NCBI GenBank assembly: GCA_025351325.1
Contig: JANXWE010000196.1
Span: forward strand, 1-34,316
DNA from: Fimbriiglobus sp.
GTDB lineage: Bacteria; Planctomycetota; Planctomycetia; Gemmatales; Gemmataceae
Reading direction: 5' to 3'
DNA: 34,316 nt
The notes beneath the pieces are model-generated. The model made no database searches. It was not told the origin of the DNA and saw only the letters and a list, made by a program, of their open reading frames with translations. This document shows, piece by piece, positions 4,492 through 24,100 of the stretch (position 1 is the stretch's first letter; the number at the start of each line of letters is the position of its first letter). Made by a program: the position numbers and the translations under genes.

Positions 4492-7400
4492 TCACGTCCC
4501 CAACACGCGCTTCAGCAACTCGTACATCCCCCCCAGCGACTCCTCGCCGCGCTCGGGCTTGAGCCGCAGGTACAGGCTCTTGTCATCGACGACCTTGAGC
4601 CGGCCGGCGGAGAGCTTCGCCACCTCGTCGGCCTTCTTGCGGTTGCGGTAGGTGAACACCAGGTCGGCGTTCTCGCGGTGGACCGCCGCGATCAGCCACT
4701 TCACGCACAAAATGCGGATCTCGGTCGCCTTGAGCAGCCACTCCGCGGCGTCCGGCGGGGGGCCGTAGCGGTCGGCGAGTTCGGCCCGGAAGTCGTCGAG
4801 CTTCTTCTGGTCGCGCAACCTCGCCAGGCGTCGATAGACCTCGATGCGCAGCTTCTGGCCCGGCACGTAGTCGCGCGGCAAGTAGGCCGGCCAGGGCAGA
4901 TCGACGTTGACCTCGATCGCGGCCTTGGGCGGCTGGTGCTTCAACTGCCGCACGGCGTTCTCGAGAATCTGGCAGTACATCTCGTAGCCGATGGCGGCGA
5001 TGTGCCCCGACTGCTCGGCCCCCAAAATGTTGCCGGCCCCGCGAATCTCGAGGTCGCGCATGCTGATCTTGAAGCCCGCGCCCAACTCGCTGAACTCCTC
5101 GATCGCCTTGAGCCGCTTCTGGGCCGTCGGCGAGATCATTTTGTGCGCGTCCACAATCAGGTAAGCATACGCCCGCAGCTTGGTCCGGCCGACGCGGCCG
5201 CGCAGTTGGTGCAGGTCGGCGAGGCCGTAGATGTCGGCCTCGTTGATGATCATGGTGTTGGCGTTGGGGATGTCGAGGCCGCTCTCGATGATCGTCGTGG
5301 CGACCAGGATGTCGGCCTCCTTCTTGACGAAAGCGACCATCGCCTTTTCCAACTCGGTCTCGGTCATTTGCCCGTGGGCAATCGCAATCTTGGCATCGGG
5401 GACGATGTACGCCAACTCGGCCGCGATGTCTTTGATGTCGTGGACGCGGTTGTGAACGAAATAGACCTGGCCGCCACGGTTGAACTCCCGGTTGATGGCG
5501 TGCCGGATCATCTTGTCGTCCCAGCTCACGATGCGCGTTTCGACCGGGTAGCGATCCGGCGGCGGCGTTTCCAGATTCGAGATTTCGCGCACACCCAAGA
5601 GCGCGCTGTGGAGCGTCCGCGGGATCGGCGTCGCCGTCATCGTGAGGATGTCCACGGTCGTGCGGAGCCGCTTCAACCGCTCTTTGTGCTCGACCCCGAA
5701 GCGCTGCTCTTCGTCGATGACGACGAGGCCCAAATCTTTGAACTTCACGGCATCGCTGACGAGCCGGTGCGTGCCCACAACGATATCGATGGTGCCGGCC
5801 GCGAGGGCTTTGATCGTCTCTTTCTGCTTGGCGGCACTCTTAAAACGGTTCAGCACTTCGACCCGGAAGGGGTACTCGGCAAGCCGCTGCTGGATGGTCT
5901 TGTAGTGCTGCTCGGCGAGAACGGTAGTCGGCACGAGGATCGCCACTTGCTTGCCGTTGTCAATCACCTTGAACGCCGCGCGGATGGCGACTTCGGTCTT
6001 GCCGTAGCCGACGTCACCGCACAAGAGGCGATCCATCGGCTTCGGCTTTTCGAGGTCGGCACGGATCTCTGCGATGGCCGTGAGTTGGTCGGGCGTCTCT
6101 TGGTAGGGGAAGGCCCCTTCGAACTCCTGCTGCCAGTCGGAGTCGGCCGGGTAAGCGTGGCCCGGAATGGCGTTCCGCACCGCTTGCACTTGGATCATCT
6201 CGGCGGCCATGTCCATGACCGCTTCGGAGATTTTGTCCTTCTGCCGGCCCCACGATTGCCCGCCGAGTTTGGAGAGTTTCGGCTCACCCTGCGAGCCCCC
6301 GACGTAGCGCTGGATCAGGTCGATCCTGGTGGCGGGTACGTACAAAAGTACACCGTCGCGGAACTCGAGAATTAGAAACTCCTCGAATGCGGAGTGCGGA
6401 GTGCGGAGTGCGGAATCGAGGAGTTCGGTGTCTTCATTCCGCATTCCGAGCTCCGCACTCCGACCTTTTTCCAGAGTCCGCATGCCACGGAAGCGGGCAA
6501 TCCCCTGGGCCACGTGGACGACGTAGTCGCCGTCGTTGAGGTCGAGGAAGCTGTCGATGGCCCGCGATTCGATCTTCCGGCCGGTGGCTTTGGTCGACTG
6601 CTTGGCCCCCGGCGGCAGCAGCTCCTTGTGGAAGAGTTCGTGGCTACCGAGCACCAACACGCCGAGATCGACGAGCCGAAACCCGGCCTTAACGTGCCCC
6701 GAGACCAACGTCACCCGGCCGGTTTCCGCGAGTTGGCCCGCCTGGAGGACGTCGGTGAGCCGGTGGATTTCGGATTCGGTCTGGCAGGCGATCCAGACGT
6801 GGGTGCCGGTGTCACCGCTGCCCGCAATCGCGTCCAACTCCTCGCGGACGCGCAGCACGTTGCCACTGAACCGTTCGATACTTTCTACGCGCAAATGGGC
6901 CGTCGCTTCGACACTCGGTCGTGGCATCGCGGAGATGGCCACCGTCGGGAGTTTCATCAACTGCTCGAACGCGCCGGCGGGGCTGAACAGACCGGCGGGG
7001 TTGGCGACACGCTCGAAGAAGTGCCGACCCTGTTCCTTGAGATCACCCGATTCGACTAGGGCGACTATCGAACCGGCCGGGAAATAGTCGAGCAGGAATC
7101 CCAGCCCCCCCCGACCGGCGTGCGGGTCGAAGGCACCCAGAATCAGCAGTTCGGTCTTCTTGTCGAGGCTGCGTTGGGTCTGCGCGGCGAACTGGCGGAT
7201 CGATTCCAGATCGTCGCCGAAGAATTCGAGCCGCACGGGGTCGGTGGCGTCGGGCGGGAAGAGATCGAGGATGCCACCCCGTTTGCCGAATTCACCGGGG
7301 TACTCCACGGAGTCGACCCGTTGATACCCGGCTGTCAGCAGCCACTCGGCGAGTTCATCGGGTGGCAACGATTGGCCGACTTTCACCCGCCGGCCGCGCT

Positions 7401-7833
7401 TGGCGAGTTCGTCCCGCAGTGGCACCGATTGCAGTACGGCGGCGAACGGGGCAATGACCAACTTCGGCGCCGCGGCACCGGCGAGGTTCTGGAGGACGCG
7501 CAACCGCTGTCCCGTTTCCGGGGCGATCTTGCCGGCCTTTTCGACGGGGGGCCAAGACTCGTACGCGGGGAAGATGGCGGGGCGTTGTCCGAAGGTGGCG
7601 AGGTCCTCGGCCCACGGGCCGACATCGGTGAGGTTCGGGACCACCAGCAGCACCGACGCGGGCGTTTCCCCGGCCAGTGCAGCCACGGCCAGCGCCGCCG
7701 AGGACCCCCACGCCCCGTCGATGCCACCGGCTTGCTTCTGTTTCAACGCGGCGCGCAAGTGTGCCCACCCCGGCAACGTCGCCAGCCGGGCGGGGAGATC
7801 GGTGAGGGAAGGTGGTGCGACGACCCGAGCCAT
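4492..7833 (-). CDS. mfd: Transcription-repair coupling factor Mfd
   Basis: An 1113-residue DNA translocase that removes RNA polymerase stalled at DNA damage and recruits UvrA. Order of domains: UvrB-like N-terminal part (about 1-340, with VEYPGEFGKRGGILDLFPP), the RNA-polymerase-interacting CarD/Tudor-like domain (about 430-510, DYVVHVAQGIARFRGM to LLYVPATRIDLIQRYVGG), RecG-like helicase lobes (about 560-930) with Walker A GDVGYGKTEVA near 607, the DEEQRFG box near 704 and TMTATPIPRTL, then the C-terminal TRCF domain. Length and order match the family. Oddity: the RNA-polymerase-binding domain has about 25 extra residues (458-482) encoded by a palindromic repeat inserted in frame. The ATG at 7833 is followed by a normal Mfd N-terminus. 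It lies 40 bases downstream of the DUF3885-like gene, probably in the same transcript. Confidence 0.97.
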   Translation of the reverse strand: MARVVAPPSLTDLPARLATLPGWAHLRAALKQKQAGGIDGAWGSSAALAVAALAGETPASVLLVVPNLTDVGPWAEDLATFGQRPAIFPAYESWPPVEKAGKIAPETGQRLRVLQNLAGAAAPKLVIAPFAAVLQSVPLRDELAKRGRRVKVGQSLPPDELAEWLLTAGYQRVDSVEYPGEFGKRGGILDLFPPDATDPVRLEFFGDDLESIRQFAAQTQRSLDKKTELLILGAFDPHAGRGGLGFLLDYFPAGSIVALVESGDLKEQGRHFFERVANPAGLFSPAGAFEQLMKLPTVAISAMPRPSVEATAHLRVESIERFSGNVLRVREELDAIAGSGDTGTHVWIACQTESEIHRLTDVLQAGQLAETGRVTLVSGHVKAGFRLVDLGVLVLGSHELFHKELLPPGAKQSTKATGRKIESRAIDSFLDLNDGDYVVHVAQGIARFRGMRTLEKGRSAELGMRNEDTELLDSALRTPHSAFEEFLILEFRDGVLLYVPATRIDLIQRYVGGSQGEPKLSKLGGQSWGRQKDKISEAVMDMAAEMIQVQAVRNAIPGHAYPADSDWQQEFEGAFPYQETPDQLTAIAEIRADLEKPKPMDRLLCGDVGYGKTEVAIRAAFKVIDNGKQVAILVPTTVLAEQHYKTIQQRLAEYPFRVEVLNRFKSAAKQKETIKALAAGTIDIVVGTHRLVSDAVKFKDLGLVVIDEEQRFGVEHKERLKRLRTTVDILTMTATPIPRTLHSALLGVREISNLETPPPDRYPVETRIVSWDDKMIRHAINREFNRGGQVYFVHNRVHDIKDIAAELAYIVPDAKIAIAHGQMTETELEKAMVAFVKKEADILVATTIIESGLDIPNANTMIINEADIYGLADLHQLRGRVGRTKLRAYAYLIVDAHKMISPTAQKRLKAIEEFSELGAGFKISMRDLEIRGAGNILGAEQSGHIAAIGYEMYCQILENAVRQLKHQPPKAAIEVNVDLPWPAYLPRDYVPGQKLRIEVYRRLARLRDQKKLDDFRAELADRYGPPPDAAEWLLKATEIRILCVKWLIAAVHRENADLVFTYRNRKKADEVAKLSAGRLKVVDDKSLYLRLKPERGEESLGGMYELLKRVLGT
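6390..6462. repeat. In-frame palindromic repeat element inside mfd
   Basis: Two 27-base arms, 6390-6416 and 6436-6462, are inverted copies matching at 24 of 27 positions, separated by 19 bases. The left arm is a tandem of the unit GGAGTGC; the right arm contains ATTCCGC and ACTCCGC units. A second perfect 10-bp inverted repeat, AACTCCTCGA (6377-6386) and TCGAGGAGTT (6416-6425), overlaps it. On the minus strand the element reads through as GRSAELGMRNEDTELL and DSALRTPHSAF. This peptide text is, from memory, the signature of a dispersed repeat normally found between genes in many bacteria. It adds residues 458-482 to Mfd without breaking the frame. Confidence 0.85.
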
Positions 7834-21569: not shown

Positions 21570-23831
21570 TCACTTCTTCAGTTCGGCATACACCACCCGG
21601 AAGCCGATGGCGTTGGTGCTGCTGCGCGGGTCATGGTAGGCACGCGATGCCGAGCGGGCCTTGGCGGCAGTCTCGTTCCAGGCGCCACCCCGGATGACGC
21701 GGACCCCGCCGGCGGAGTCGCTCGGGCCAACCGGATCGGTACGTTCGCCCGGCGGATACGACTCCGAATAGAAGTCGCTGCACCACTCCCAGAGGTTCCC
21801 GTGCATGTCGAACAGTCCGAACGCGTTCGGGGTGCGGCGCAGATCTTCGTACCCCTTTTCGGTCGGATCGCCGTCCTTGGCGGCCACGGGGTAGGGCTTC
21901 GCCTCGCGCTTCTTCCCGAGCAGTTCCGGGTTTGATTCCCAATACAGATCCTCGGGTTCTTCCAGGAAGATCCCCTGCTTCTGAAAGACGATCTTGGTGC
22001 CGAAGGCGAACGGCGTGCTCGTGCCGGCACGGGCGCAATACTCCCATTCCGCTTCGGTCGGCAGCCGGTAGCCCCAACCCGGCCGGCGGTCCTTCTCTTT
22101 CTTGGTCAGCTTGTCGCAGAACTCCACCGCTTTGTCGTAACTGACGTTGTCCACGGGAATCCGGTTGGTCAGTTTCGAGTTGAAGTTCTTAGAATTGCGC
22201 GACGGCGAATCGCCCATGAGATTCAGGTACTGGCCCTGCGTGACTTCGGTGGCCGACAGATAGAACGCCTGCGTCAGCTTGACCGTCTCCATTGGGCCTT
22301 CGTTGTCTTCCCGGCGCACTTCGGCATTCGGGGAACCCATCGCGAATTGGCCCGGCTCGATCTTCACCATCGTCATCCCGAACGAATTGTCGAACTTCGC
22401 TTCCAGTGGCCCGACCACCTTCTCCGGCTCCCCGCCGAAGTACCAAATCCCAATACTCCCCAAGCTGACGAACATCACCATGACCGCGATGCCGGCAAAA
22501 ATCACCAGAGGCAGATTCGACCGTTTCTTCGGCCGGCGTACTTGGATGTTGTCAACCTGCCCACGCTGATCCGACTCAGCCTGTTCATCGTCGGCGGACT
22601 CCTGAACGCTCATATCCGAAAATGGACTCGGTGTGGCCGCAGCGTACTGTGCTGGCACTGGCATAGCCCCGCGGTACGCCGGAGGCTGGCCCGGCACCCC
22701 GTTGATGGCCACGGGCTGCGCGGTGAGTGTGGCCCGAGCAAATGGTTGCGGAAACGGGGCGGGCGTTTGCATCGCCGACGTCGGATAGCTACCCGGTTGA
22801 GGGGGGCAAAACGGCACGAGCGCCTGCGCGACCACGGATGGCATCTGCGGGCGATCTTCCGGACGCTTCGCCATGAACCAGGCAATGAGCTGATCGAGCT
22901 GAGGTGGAGCATCCGGCAGATAGTTCCGCACGCTCGGTGGTGGCTCAGTGACATGCTTCAACAGTTTCTCAGTTGCGGTTTTCCCCTCGTACGGAACACG
23001 CCCGGTCACCAGATAAAAAAGTGTCGCACCCAGTGAATAGACATCAGCGCGGATATCGACAGCCGTGGAGTTCTGCGCTTGTTCCGGTGCCAAGAAATCT
23101 GGAGTGCCGAGGACGAAACCATCTTGCGTCACCCGGGTGGCGTTCTCTCCACCCGCGAAGGTCGGATCGTGCAACAGGGCCAACCCGAGATCGAGCAGTT
23201 TCACTTGACCCCGTGGCGTCAGCAAGAGGTTGCTCGGCTTGACGTCGCGGTGGACGAGCCCACGTTCAAAGGCGTGTTGTAGTCCGGTGGCCGCTTGGCG
23301 GATGGCATCGCAGGCGGCCGGGATCGACATCGGCCCCTTGGCTCGCACGTGCTTGGTCAGGTCGATTCCTTCGACGTACTCCATCGACAAACACAGTCCG
23401 CCATCACCCGCTTCTTCGGCGTCGAAGGCCAGCACCACATTGGGGTGCGACAACTGTGCGGCGGCGTGAATTTCTTGACGGAAGCGACCGACCACGGCCG
23501 GGTTCGACAATTTTTCTTTGCGGATGACCTTGAGCGCGACATCGCGACCGAGCCGCAAATGCTTCGCTTTGAAGACGCGCCCCATGCCGCCTTCGCCGAG
23601 CAACTCGAGCAGCCGATACGAGCCGAGGGTGAGTTCGCGCGCCCGCCCTTTGGAGGTCTCCTTCGCTTGGAACGTCGTGAGCCAGCCACGCCGGATCAAC
23701 TCCTTGGCCAGGGCCGTCGGATCAGGTTGGAACTCAGAGATCCACGACCGCATCTCTTGCAATTGCGACGCATCCAGCAGTTGCGCGTGCCCGAGTGAAA
23801 CGAGGAACGCTTCGGCGGGGTCGTTACTCAT
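21570..23831 (-). CDS. Transmembrane Ser/Thr kinase with C-terminal FGE-like domain
   Basis: A 753-residue receptor-like kinase. Residues 1-60 are the helical region common in planctomycete kinases (ending LIRRGWLTTFQA). The kinase domain (72-340) has the P-loop GEGGMGRV (79-86), Lys101 in VALKV, Glu120, the HRDVKPSN loop (Asp196), DLG in place of DFG (214-216) and APE (248-250), so it should be active. A Pro/Ala linker leads to one TM helix (about 440-464). The outer part, 482-750, is an FGE-sulfatase/SUMF1-type domain: MVKIEPGQFAMGS, RLPTEAEWEYCARAG, FGLFDMHGNLWEWCSDF, RVIRGGAWN and AIGFRVV. The two catalytic cysteines that follow RGG in true formylglycine-generating enzymes are absent (AWNETAAKARSASR), so it is more likely a binding or sensing module than an active enzyme. 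No partner gene is evident. Confidence 0.92.
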   Translation of the reverse strand: MSNDPAEAFLVSLGHAQLLDASQLQEMRSWISEFQPDPTALAKELIRRGWLTTFQAKETSKGRARELTLGSYRLLELLGEGGMGRVFKAKHLRLGRDVALKVIRKEKLSNPAVVGRFRQEIHAAAQLSHPNVVLAFDAEEAGDGGLCLSMEYVEGIDLTKHVRAKGPMSIPAACDAIRQAATGLQHAFERGLVHRDVKPSNLLLTPRGQVKLLDLGLALLHDPTFAGGENATRVTQDGFVLGTPDFLAPEQAQNSTAVDIRADVYSLGATLFYLVTGRVPYEGKTATEKLLKHVTEPPPSVRNYLPDAPPQLDQLIAWFMAKRPEDRPQMPSVVAQALVPFCPPQPGSYPTSAMQTPAPFPQPFARATLTAQPVAINGVPGQPPAYRGAMPVPAQYAAATPSPFSDMSVQESADDEQAESDQRGQVDNIQVRRPKKRSNLPLVIFAGIAVMVMFVSLGSIGIWYFGGEPEKVVGPLEAKFDNSFGMTMVKIEPGQFAMGSPNAEVRREDNEGPMETVKLTQAFYLSATEVTQGQYLNLMGDSPSRNSKNFNSKLTNRIPVDNVSYDKAVEFCDKLTKKEKDRRPGWGYRLPTEAEWEYCARAGTSTPFAFGTKIVFQKQGIFLEEPEDLYWESNPELLGKKREAKPYPVAAKDGDPTEKGYEDLRRTPNAFGLFDMHGNLWEWCSDFYSESYPPGERTDPVGPSDSAGGVRVIRGGAWNETAAKARSASRAYHDPRSSTNAIGFRVVYAELKK

Positions 23832-23965: not shown

Positions 23966-23980
23966 CCGTTGACGAACAGC

Positions 23981-24033
23981 GACCAGGCGGATAACTTTAA
24001 ATTATAAGTAAATTTAAAGTTATCCGCCTGGTC
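23981..24033. repeat. Perfect 23-bp-arm palindrome with AT-rich core
   Basis: The arms 23981-24003 and 24011-24033 are perfect inverted copies of 23 bases, with the 7-base loop ATAAGTA. The outer half of each arm is GC-rich (GACCAGGCGGAT) and the inner half AT-rich (AACTTTAAATT). It lies 67 bases past the thioredoxin-like gene's stop and 150 bases upstream of the kinase ATG. There is no T-tract next to it. It could serve as a terminator, a protein-binding site, or a mobile repeat. Confidence 0.9.
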
Positions 24034-24100
24034 GGTGGAGACGACGTGCGACAGCCTAAAAAATCACCTTCGCTCCGGCAAATTCTGAAACAGCAAACCA

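Follow-up and report, generated by a model that had tools for sequence, protein, structure and literature searches.

On the evidence of genome sequences, one loop in the RNA-polymerase-binding domain of the transcription-repair coupling factor Mfd bears different palindromic repeats in different species of a single bacterial family, a result that goes beyond the first-pass annotation of this DNA, in which one such palindrome had been noticed in one gene. The explanation that we favor, to which we assign a probability of roughly 0.78, is that small, lineage-specific mobile palindromes repeatedly enter ‘tolerant’ protein loops, that of Mfd included, or replace one another within them.

An in-frame palindrome in the polymerase-interaction domain of Mfd

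The window (the whole stretch of 34,316 nucleotides that was analysed) corresponds to contig C244 of genome G000, a draft of 5.09 Mb that is 96% complete. The features of immediate relevance are the following.

4492..7833, minus strand: mfd, transcription-repair coupling factor (open reading frame; Pfam UvrB_inter, CarD_TRCF_RID, DEAD, Helicase_C, TRCF)
6301..6540, minus strand: RNA-polymerase-interaction domain (CarD/TRCF RID, Tudor-like), residues 432-511 (PF02559, 47.9 bits; fold match 2EYQ)
6385..6462, minus strand: inserted segment RSAELGMRNEDTELLDSALRTPHSAF, residues 458-483, 26 codons (alignment with relatives)
6390..6416, no strand: one palindrome arm, a tandem of CGGAGTG heptamers that codes for the C-terminal portion of the insert (repeat search)
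6417..6435, minus strand: spacer, coding strand GAAGACACCGAACTCCTCG, encoding the acidic EDTELL (repeat search)
6436..6462, no strand: second palindrome arm, coding for the N-terminal part of the insert (repeat search)
6472..6474, minus strand: Leu454 codon, the residue lying opposite Leu499 of E. coli Mfd, which contacts RpoB (alignment with PDB 6x26 chain A)

A repeat search of the window placed the two 27-nucleotide arms that the first-pass annotation had reported inside mfd at 6390-6416 and 6436-6462; they are complementary at 24 of 27 positions (89%) and separated by 19 nucleotides. With a score of 18 this palindrome is the second strongest in the window, and it exceeds the maximum of 13 found in simulated sequence (eight first-order Markov sequences of the window’s length). 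Both arms consist of tandems of the 7-base unit CGGAGTG and its near variants, with three to four units in each, and the corresponding RNA is predicted to fold at -46.5 kcal/mol (z -5.5). The mfd frame (1113 amino acids) continues without a stop through the palindrome, so that the open reading frame is intact, as had been claimed, and the presence of an in-frame palindrome inside mfd is confirmed. The earlier estimate of some 25 extra residues also holds in substance, although the limits of the insert are residues 458-483 (26 residues) and not 458-482.

The placement of the insert in the polymerase-binding, Tudor-like domain, at a loop between strands, was likewise borne out. Residues 432-511 were assigned to the CarD/TRCF RID by a Pfam search, and the best Foldseek match of the structure model (84 sequences, pLDDT 78.7; an earlier, poor model with a pLDDT of 54.6 was set aside) is E. 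coli Mfd, 2EYQ. In that model two confidently predicted strands, at residues 444-455 and 483-490, flank the insert, which is itself modelled at low confidence and largely without regular structure. In the alignment with PDB 6x26 chain A, the E. coli residues TLEAG (498-502) fall opposite TLEKG (453-457), and Leu454 is therefore the counterpart of E. coli Leu499; the insert begins only four residues beyond it. The L499R substitution in E. coli Mfd abolishes RpoB binding (PMC6320318), and the RID holds the protrusion of the polymerase beta subunit through the whole Mfd cycle (PMC7864632). An altered contact between Mfd and the polymerase is possible, and the location of the insert beside Leu454 makes an effect on polymerase binding directly testable.

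Two separate observations concern the same genome. A second, partial mfd-like sequence (contig C77, 1-1470) is 84% identical over residues 620-1111; either the assembly is mixed or the gene is present in another copy. Elsewhere in the window, a perfect 24-bp inverted repeat (GACCAGGCGGATAACTTTAAATT...; 23980-24034), found as a single copy in the genome, lies directly upstream of a kinase-like gene (21570-23831, minus strand).

Dispersed copies in the genome

The mfd palindrome region, used as a BLAST query, matched 69 pieces of the 5.09 Mb genome, which resolve into about 30 distinct places; the best full copy elsewhere matches at 81% over 75 nt. These copies share a common build: about four heptamers lead into a variable spacer, which often has GAAGA before it and TCTTC after it, and the heptamers then follow in inverted form; some have one arm only. 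Most appear to be intergenic, lying for example just before argS and, by inspection, beside tRNA genes, and the first-pass annotation, which had described the repeat as one otherwise found between genes, was correct in this respect. At least three further copies are in frame within genes, namely those for HisF (C91), KdpB (C322) and a YgiQ-like radical-SAM protein (C46).

When a heptamer pattern of 23 bases is searched for exactly, it is found, among the matches listed, in Verrucomicrobia, Omnitrophota, Acidobacteria, Nitrospirota, Chloroflexi and others, and the named matches among those listed include several Gemmataceae. Being found across several phyla, the unit is therefore not peculiar to this species. 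A tblastn search of the loop region against plasmids gave no match. The arms can be translated in any frame because a 7-base unit yields one and the same heptapeptide in three frames and is here free of stops on both strands; CGGAGTG is open in all six frames, but so are about half of all heptamers, and this ‘frame-safety’ is therefore nothing special.

Many of the heptamers from different genomes can be written as AGTNNNN (AGTGCGG, AGTGGGC, AGTTTCG, AGTCAGC, AGTCATT), and GAAGA...TCTTC is common to the cores of dispersed copies in several genomes, hinting at one ‘superfamily’ whose unit may drift. An unbroken array of GTCAGCA heptamers, about 350 bases long and comprising some 50 units, was also seen in G004 (C1:396244-396592).

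The Mfd loop across the family

In a survey of the family, the RID was recovered from 90 of 95 genomes. An 18-residue segment lacking any insert (of the MHVLEKNGQTEEHLILEF type) is present in 18 of the 90, while the remainder have longer, highly variable loops. The clean gap in relatives that had been anticipated is thus seen against the 18-residue loops, but not against the nearest species in the set, G002, whose Mfd is 86% identical and whose loop consists of 22 residues, non-palindromic and unrelated in sequence to the insert. The first-pass annotation had also raised the prospect of relatives with the same residues and no palindrome; the relatives either lack these residues or carry others.

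Such repeats are present in at least 16 mfd loops among the 90 genomes, and nearly all are strong palindromes. Their arms, assigned to kinds by eye, are built from CGGAGTG, CGGAACG, GTTTCGA, GTCATTC, CAGTGGG, GTCCTTG, GCGAG or the non-heptameric GAGCGGGGGGCGTCAGCCCCC, and the loop of G003 holds a GTCAGCA tandem in one direction. Abundance in the host genome was determined for four mfd inserts as single queries and for one exact pattern, with match counts that take in both orientations of a palindrome, so that elements are fewer than matches. The insert of G001 has 74 matches in its own genome, that of G059 77 and that of G061 67, and the insert of G003 has five (its own mfd counted); each of the four has none in the window’s genome. 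The GTTTCGA repeat has 17 exact matches in G108 and 13 in G109. The three palindromes that were queried as whole inserts (G001, G059 and G061) therefore abound in their host genomes.

On an Mfd tree of 41 species (loop columns removed, short search, a few weak nodes), the repeat state changes at least 14 times when absence is included as a state, and 10 times within the repeat-bearing species alone. These parsimony counts are compatible with new insertion and with conversion of an old insert alike.

In-frame repeats in other genes

The site of the HisF insert is 31 amino acids long in the window’s genome, 10 in the sister species G002 and 8 in over a dozen relatives, and the HisF proteins of G059, G065, G057 and G054 have other inserts at this site. 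No duplicated target site is visible in the single empty/filled HisF pair that was aligned, in which the flanks have diverged. Among the HisF inserts are other kinds of repeat, SEDRE...SSDLCPLTSDL and a SLTVAVRP that occurs twice (L346 in G059, L352 in G054). In addition, Ser/Thr kinase genes of G054 (L216), G065 (L218) and G063 (L219) have the CAGTGGG palindrome in frame at one shared position, which follows NILLQ and precedes the stretch that runs up to SDFGLA (HRDLKPSNILLQ, then ...VSDFGLA). The repeats of HisF show the same recurrence as those of Mfd, and such recurrence at tolerant loops is therefore general, Mfd being one instance of it; the notion of Mfd as a privileged target is correspondingly weakened.

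An acidic centre between variable arms

The spacers of the mfd palindromes encode 50% Asp or Glu, as compared with 26% in the most acidic of the six frames of 30 dispersed copies (p 2e-5, or 7e-5 with 12 lineage units), in tests that were designed after the pattern had been seen. This lower acidity of the dispersed copies weakens the view of the acidic peptide as nothing more than the element’s own core read in frame. In long loops of the same clade that are not palindromic (n=22) the middle is acidic too, with an Asp/Glu fraction of 0.34 where the ends have 0.11 (p 1e-4), while the middle of loops outside the clade is not acidic; in the HisF inserts, by inspection, an acidic centre is not consistently present. 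To judge from these comparisons, an acidic centre kept under changing arms is a feature specific to Mfd, and it would be either selected as protein or a remnant of one old insert whose arms were replaced.

Origin of the inserted segments

The explanation that we favor may be put as follows. The mfd segment would be one copy of a mobile repeat, small and non-coding, in which a short core, often starting with GAAGA and closing with TCTTC, is preceded by some four heptamers and followed by the same heptamers inverted. Its point of entry into mfd would have been a surface loop of the polymerase-binding domain, flanked by two strands, where 20-30 extra residues are probably tolerated, and an insertion in frame would require only that its total length be divisible by three. 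Repeat types that are abundant in their hosts would then have repeatedly entered, or displaced one another in, the loops of Mfd, HisF and other proteins. In Mfd, constraint on the protein probably preserves the middle of the loop (if this is not the relic of a single old insertion), with the arms as passengers. Whereas the palindrome, its frame, position and dispersal, the recurrence and change of repeat type and the acidic centre are observed, the mobility of the element, selection on the centre and tolerance of the peptide are what we infer. The heptamer is absent from the 1.5 kb flanks of all three Y1_Tnp loci in the draft genome, and no link between the element and the Y1 transposases of this genome was found in this way.

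A different history, which we regard as doubtful but not far-fetched, is that a palindrome entered mfd only once, in the ancestor of the clade, and that the acidic core was inherited while the arms were converted, lineage by lineage, to the heptamer current in each genome, some of them decaying. Among mfd loops whose arms are unrelated, the core GAAGAC keeps one reading frame, the flanks K-x-S ... AQEEN recur in many loops, and the acidity in mid-loop of the clade’s non-palindromic loops, which is lacking outside it, points the same way. HisF, however, otherwise has a loop of 8-10 amino acids and has gained different repeats, so that fresh insertion does occur; the repeat of G001 and G064 is non-heptameric, with arms that cannot be derived from the others by drift; and the sister pairs G000/G002 and G001/G003 are unlike.

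That the loop is adaptive, the acidic peptide beside the Leu499 equivalent tuning the strength or duration of Mfd’s grip on stalled polymerase, seems to us unlikely. Its location beside this RpoB-binding residue and the preservation of the acidic centre across repeat families would suit such a role, and Di Nocera et al. 2013 (PMC3733652) make the same speculation for REPs in other repair genes. The arms vary freely, however, many relatives have no loop, and the presence of such inserts in HisF, KdpB and a kinase fits passive tolerance. A combined version is slightly less probable again: the Mfd loop would take up whichever palindrome is active, and selection would retain the acidic centre, tuning transcription-coupled repair by lineage. 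If true, a mobile repeat would be the source, time and again, of an acidic loop that functions next to the point of contact with RpoB. A role as nucleic acid, in which a hairpin of the mRNA or DNA slows translation or reduces expression, is very improbable, since recent insertions would be palindromic anyway and the sister species has no palindrome, for all that the predicted RNA fold is strong and palindromes are kept in arms of widely differing sequence.

Relation to known repeats and significance

Several known systems resemble parts of what is described here. The Rickettsia palindromic elements are dispersed palindromes found in frame in genes that are likely to code for functional proteins (as summarised in PMC3733652). 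In Mfd and HisF, too, an in-frame palindrome is accompanied by orthologues that lack it; in contrast, the phylum is different, the arms are heptamer tandems, and one loop holds various repeats across species. The comparison drawn by the first-pass annotation may therefore stand as an analogy, of in-frame palindromes in apparently tolerant loops, but not as membership of that family.

REPs (GTAG- or CGTC-tagged) are likewise small dispersed palindromes, mostly intergenic, which occur within genes for excinuclease ABC, UvrD/Rep, RecBCD, DNA polymerase I and DnaE2; two Xanthomonas carry different REPs at about the same site of recB, and the main text of that survey makes no mention of mfd (PMC3733652). 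By inspection, the copies described here show no GTAG/CGTC tag at their ends, and typically start with AAGTGCGGA and finish with TCCGCACTT; nor is a RAYT transposase flanked by the repeat, as in REP systems, found at the three Y1_Tnp loci of the draft genome.

The heptameric STRR repeats (of the GGGAATC type, in cyanobacteria and Xanthomonas) are dispersed tandems of 7-base units, sometimes inverted; in Xanthomonas 7-11% of heptameric repeats are intragenic, and such repeats have been little studied (PMC4692102). Tandem 7-base units, three to four per arm and at about 30 places, are shared with the present element, which is usually a palindrome with a core, whereas STRRs are chiefly one-directional arrays. 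Finally, MITEs and REPINs are short, non-coding inverted-repeat elements, thought to be moved by a transposase in trans (PMC3116915, PMC10969869); the present element lacks matching transposase ends at the three Y1 loci.

In-frame palindromes were known before, mostly as scattered cases. What is added is a single loop, beside a polymerase contact, that has been traced through a family while its repeat type changes and its acidic centre persists. Across some 90 species one can follow a single loop of a housekeeping protein in which several unrelated repeats occupy the same point. Nature thus provides a series in which to study how mobile repeats turn into protein, and whether their presence is tolerated by repair proteins or alters them.
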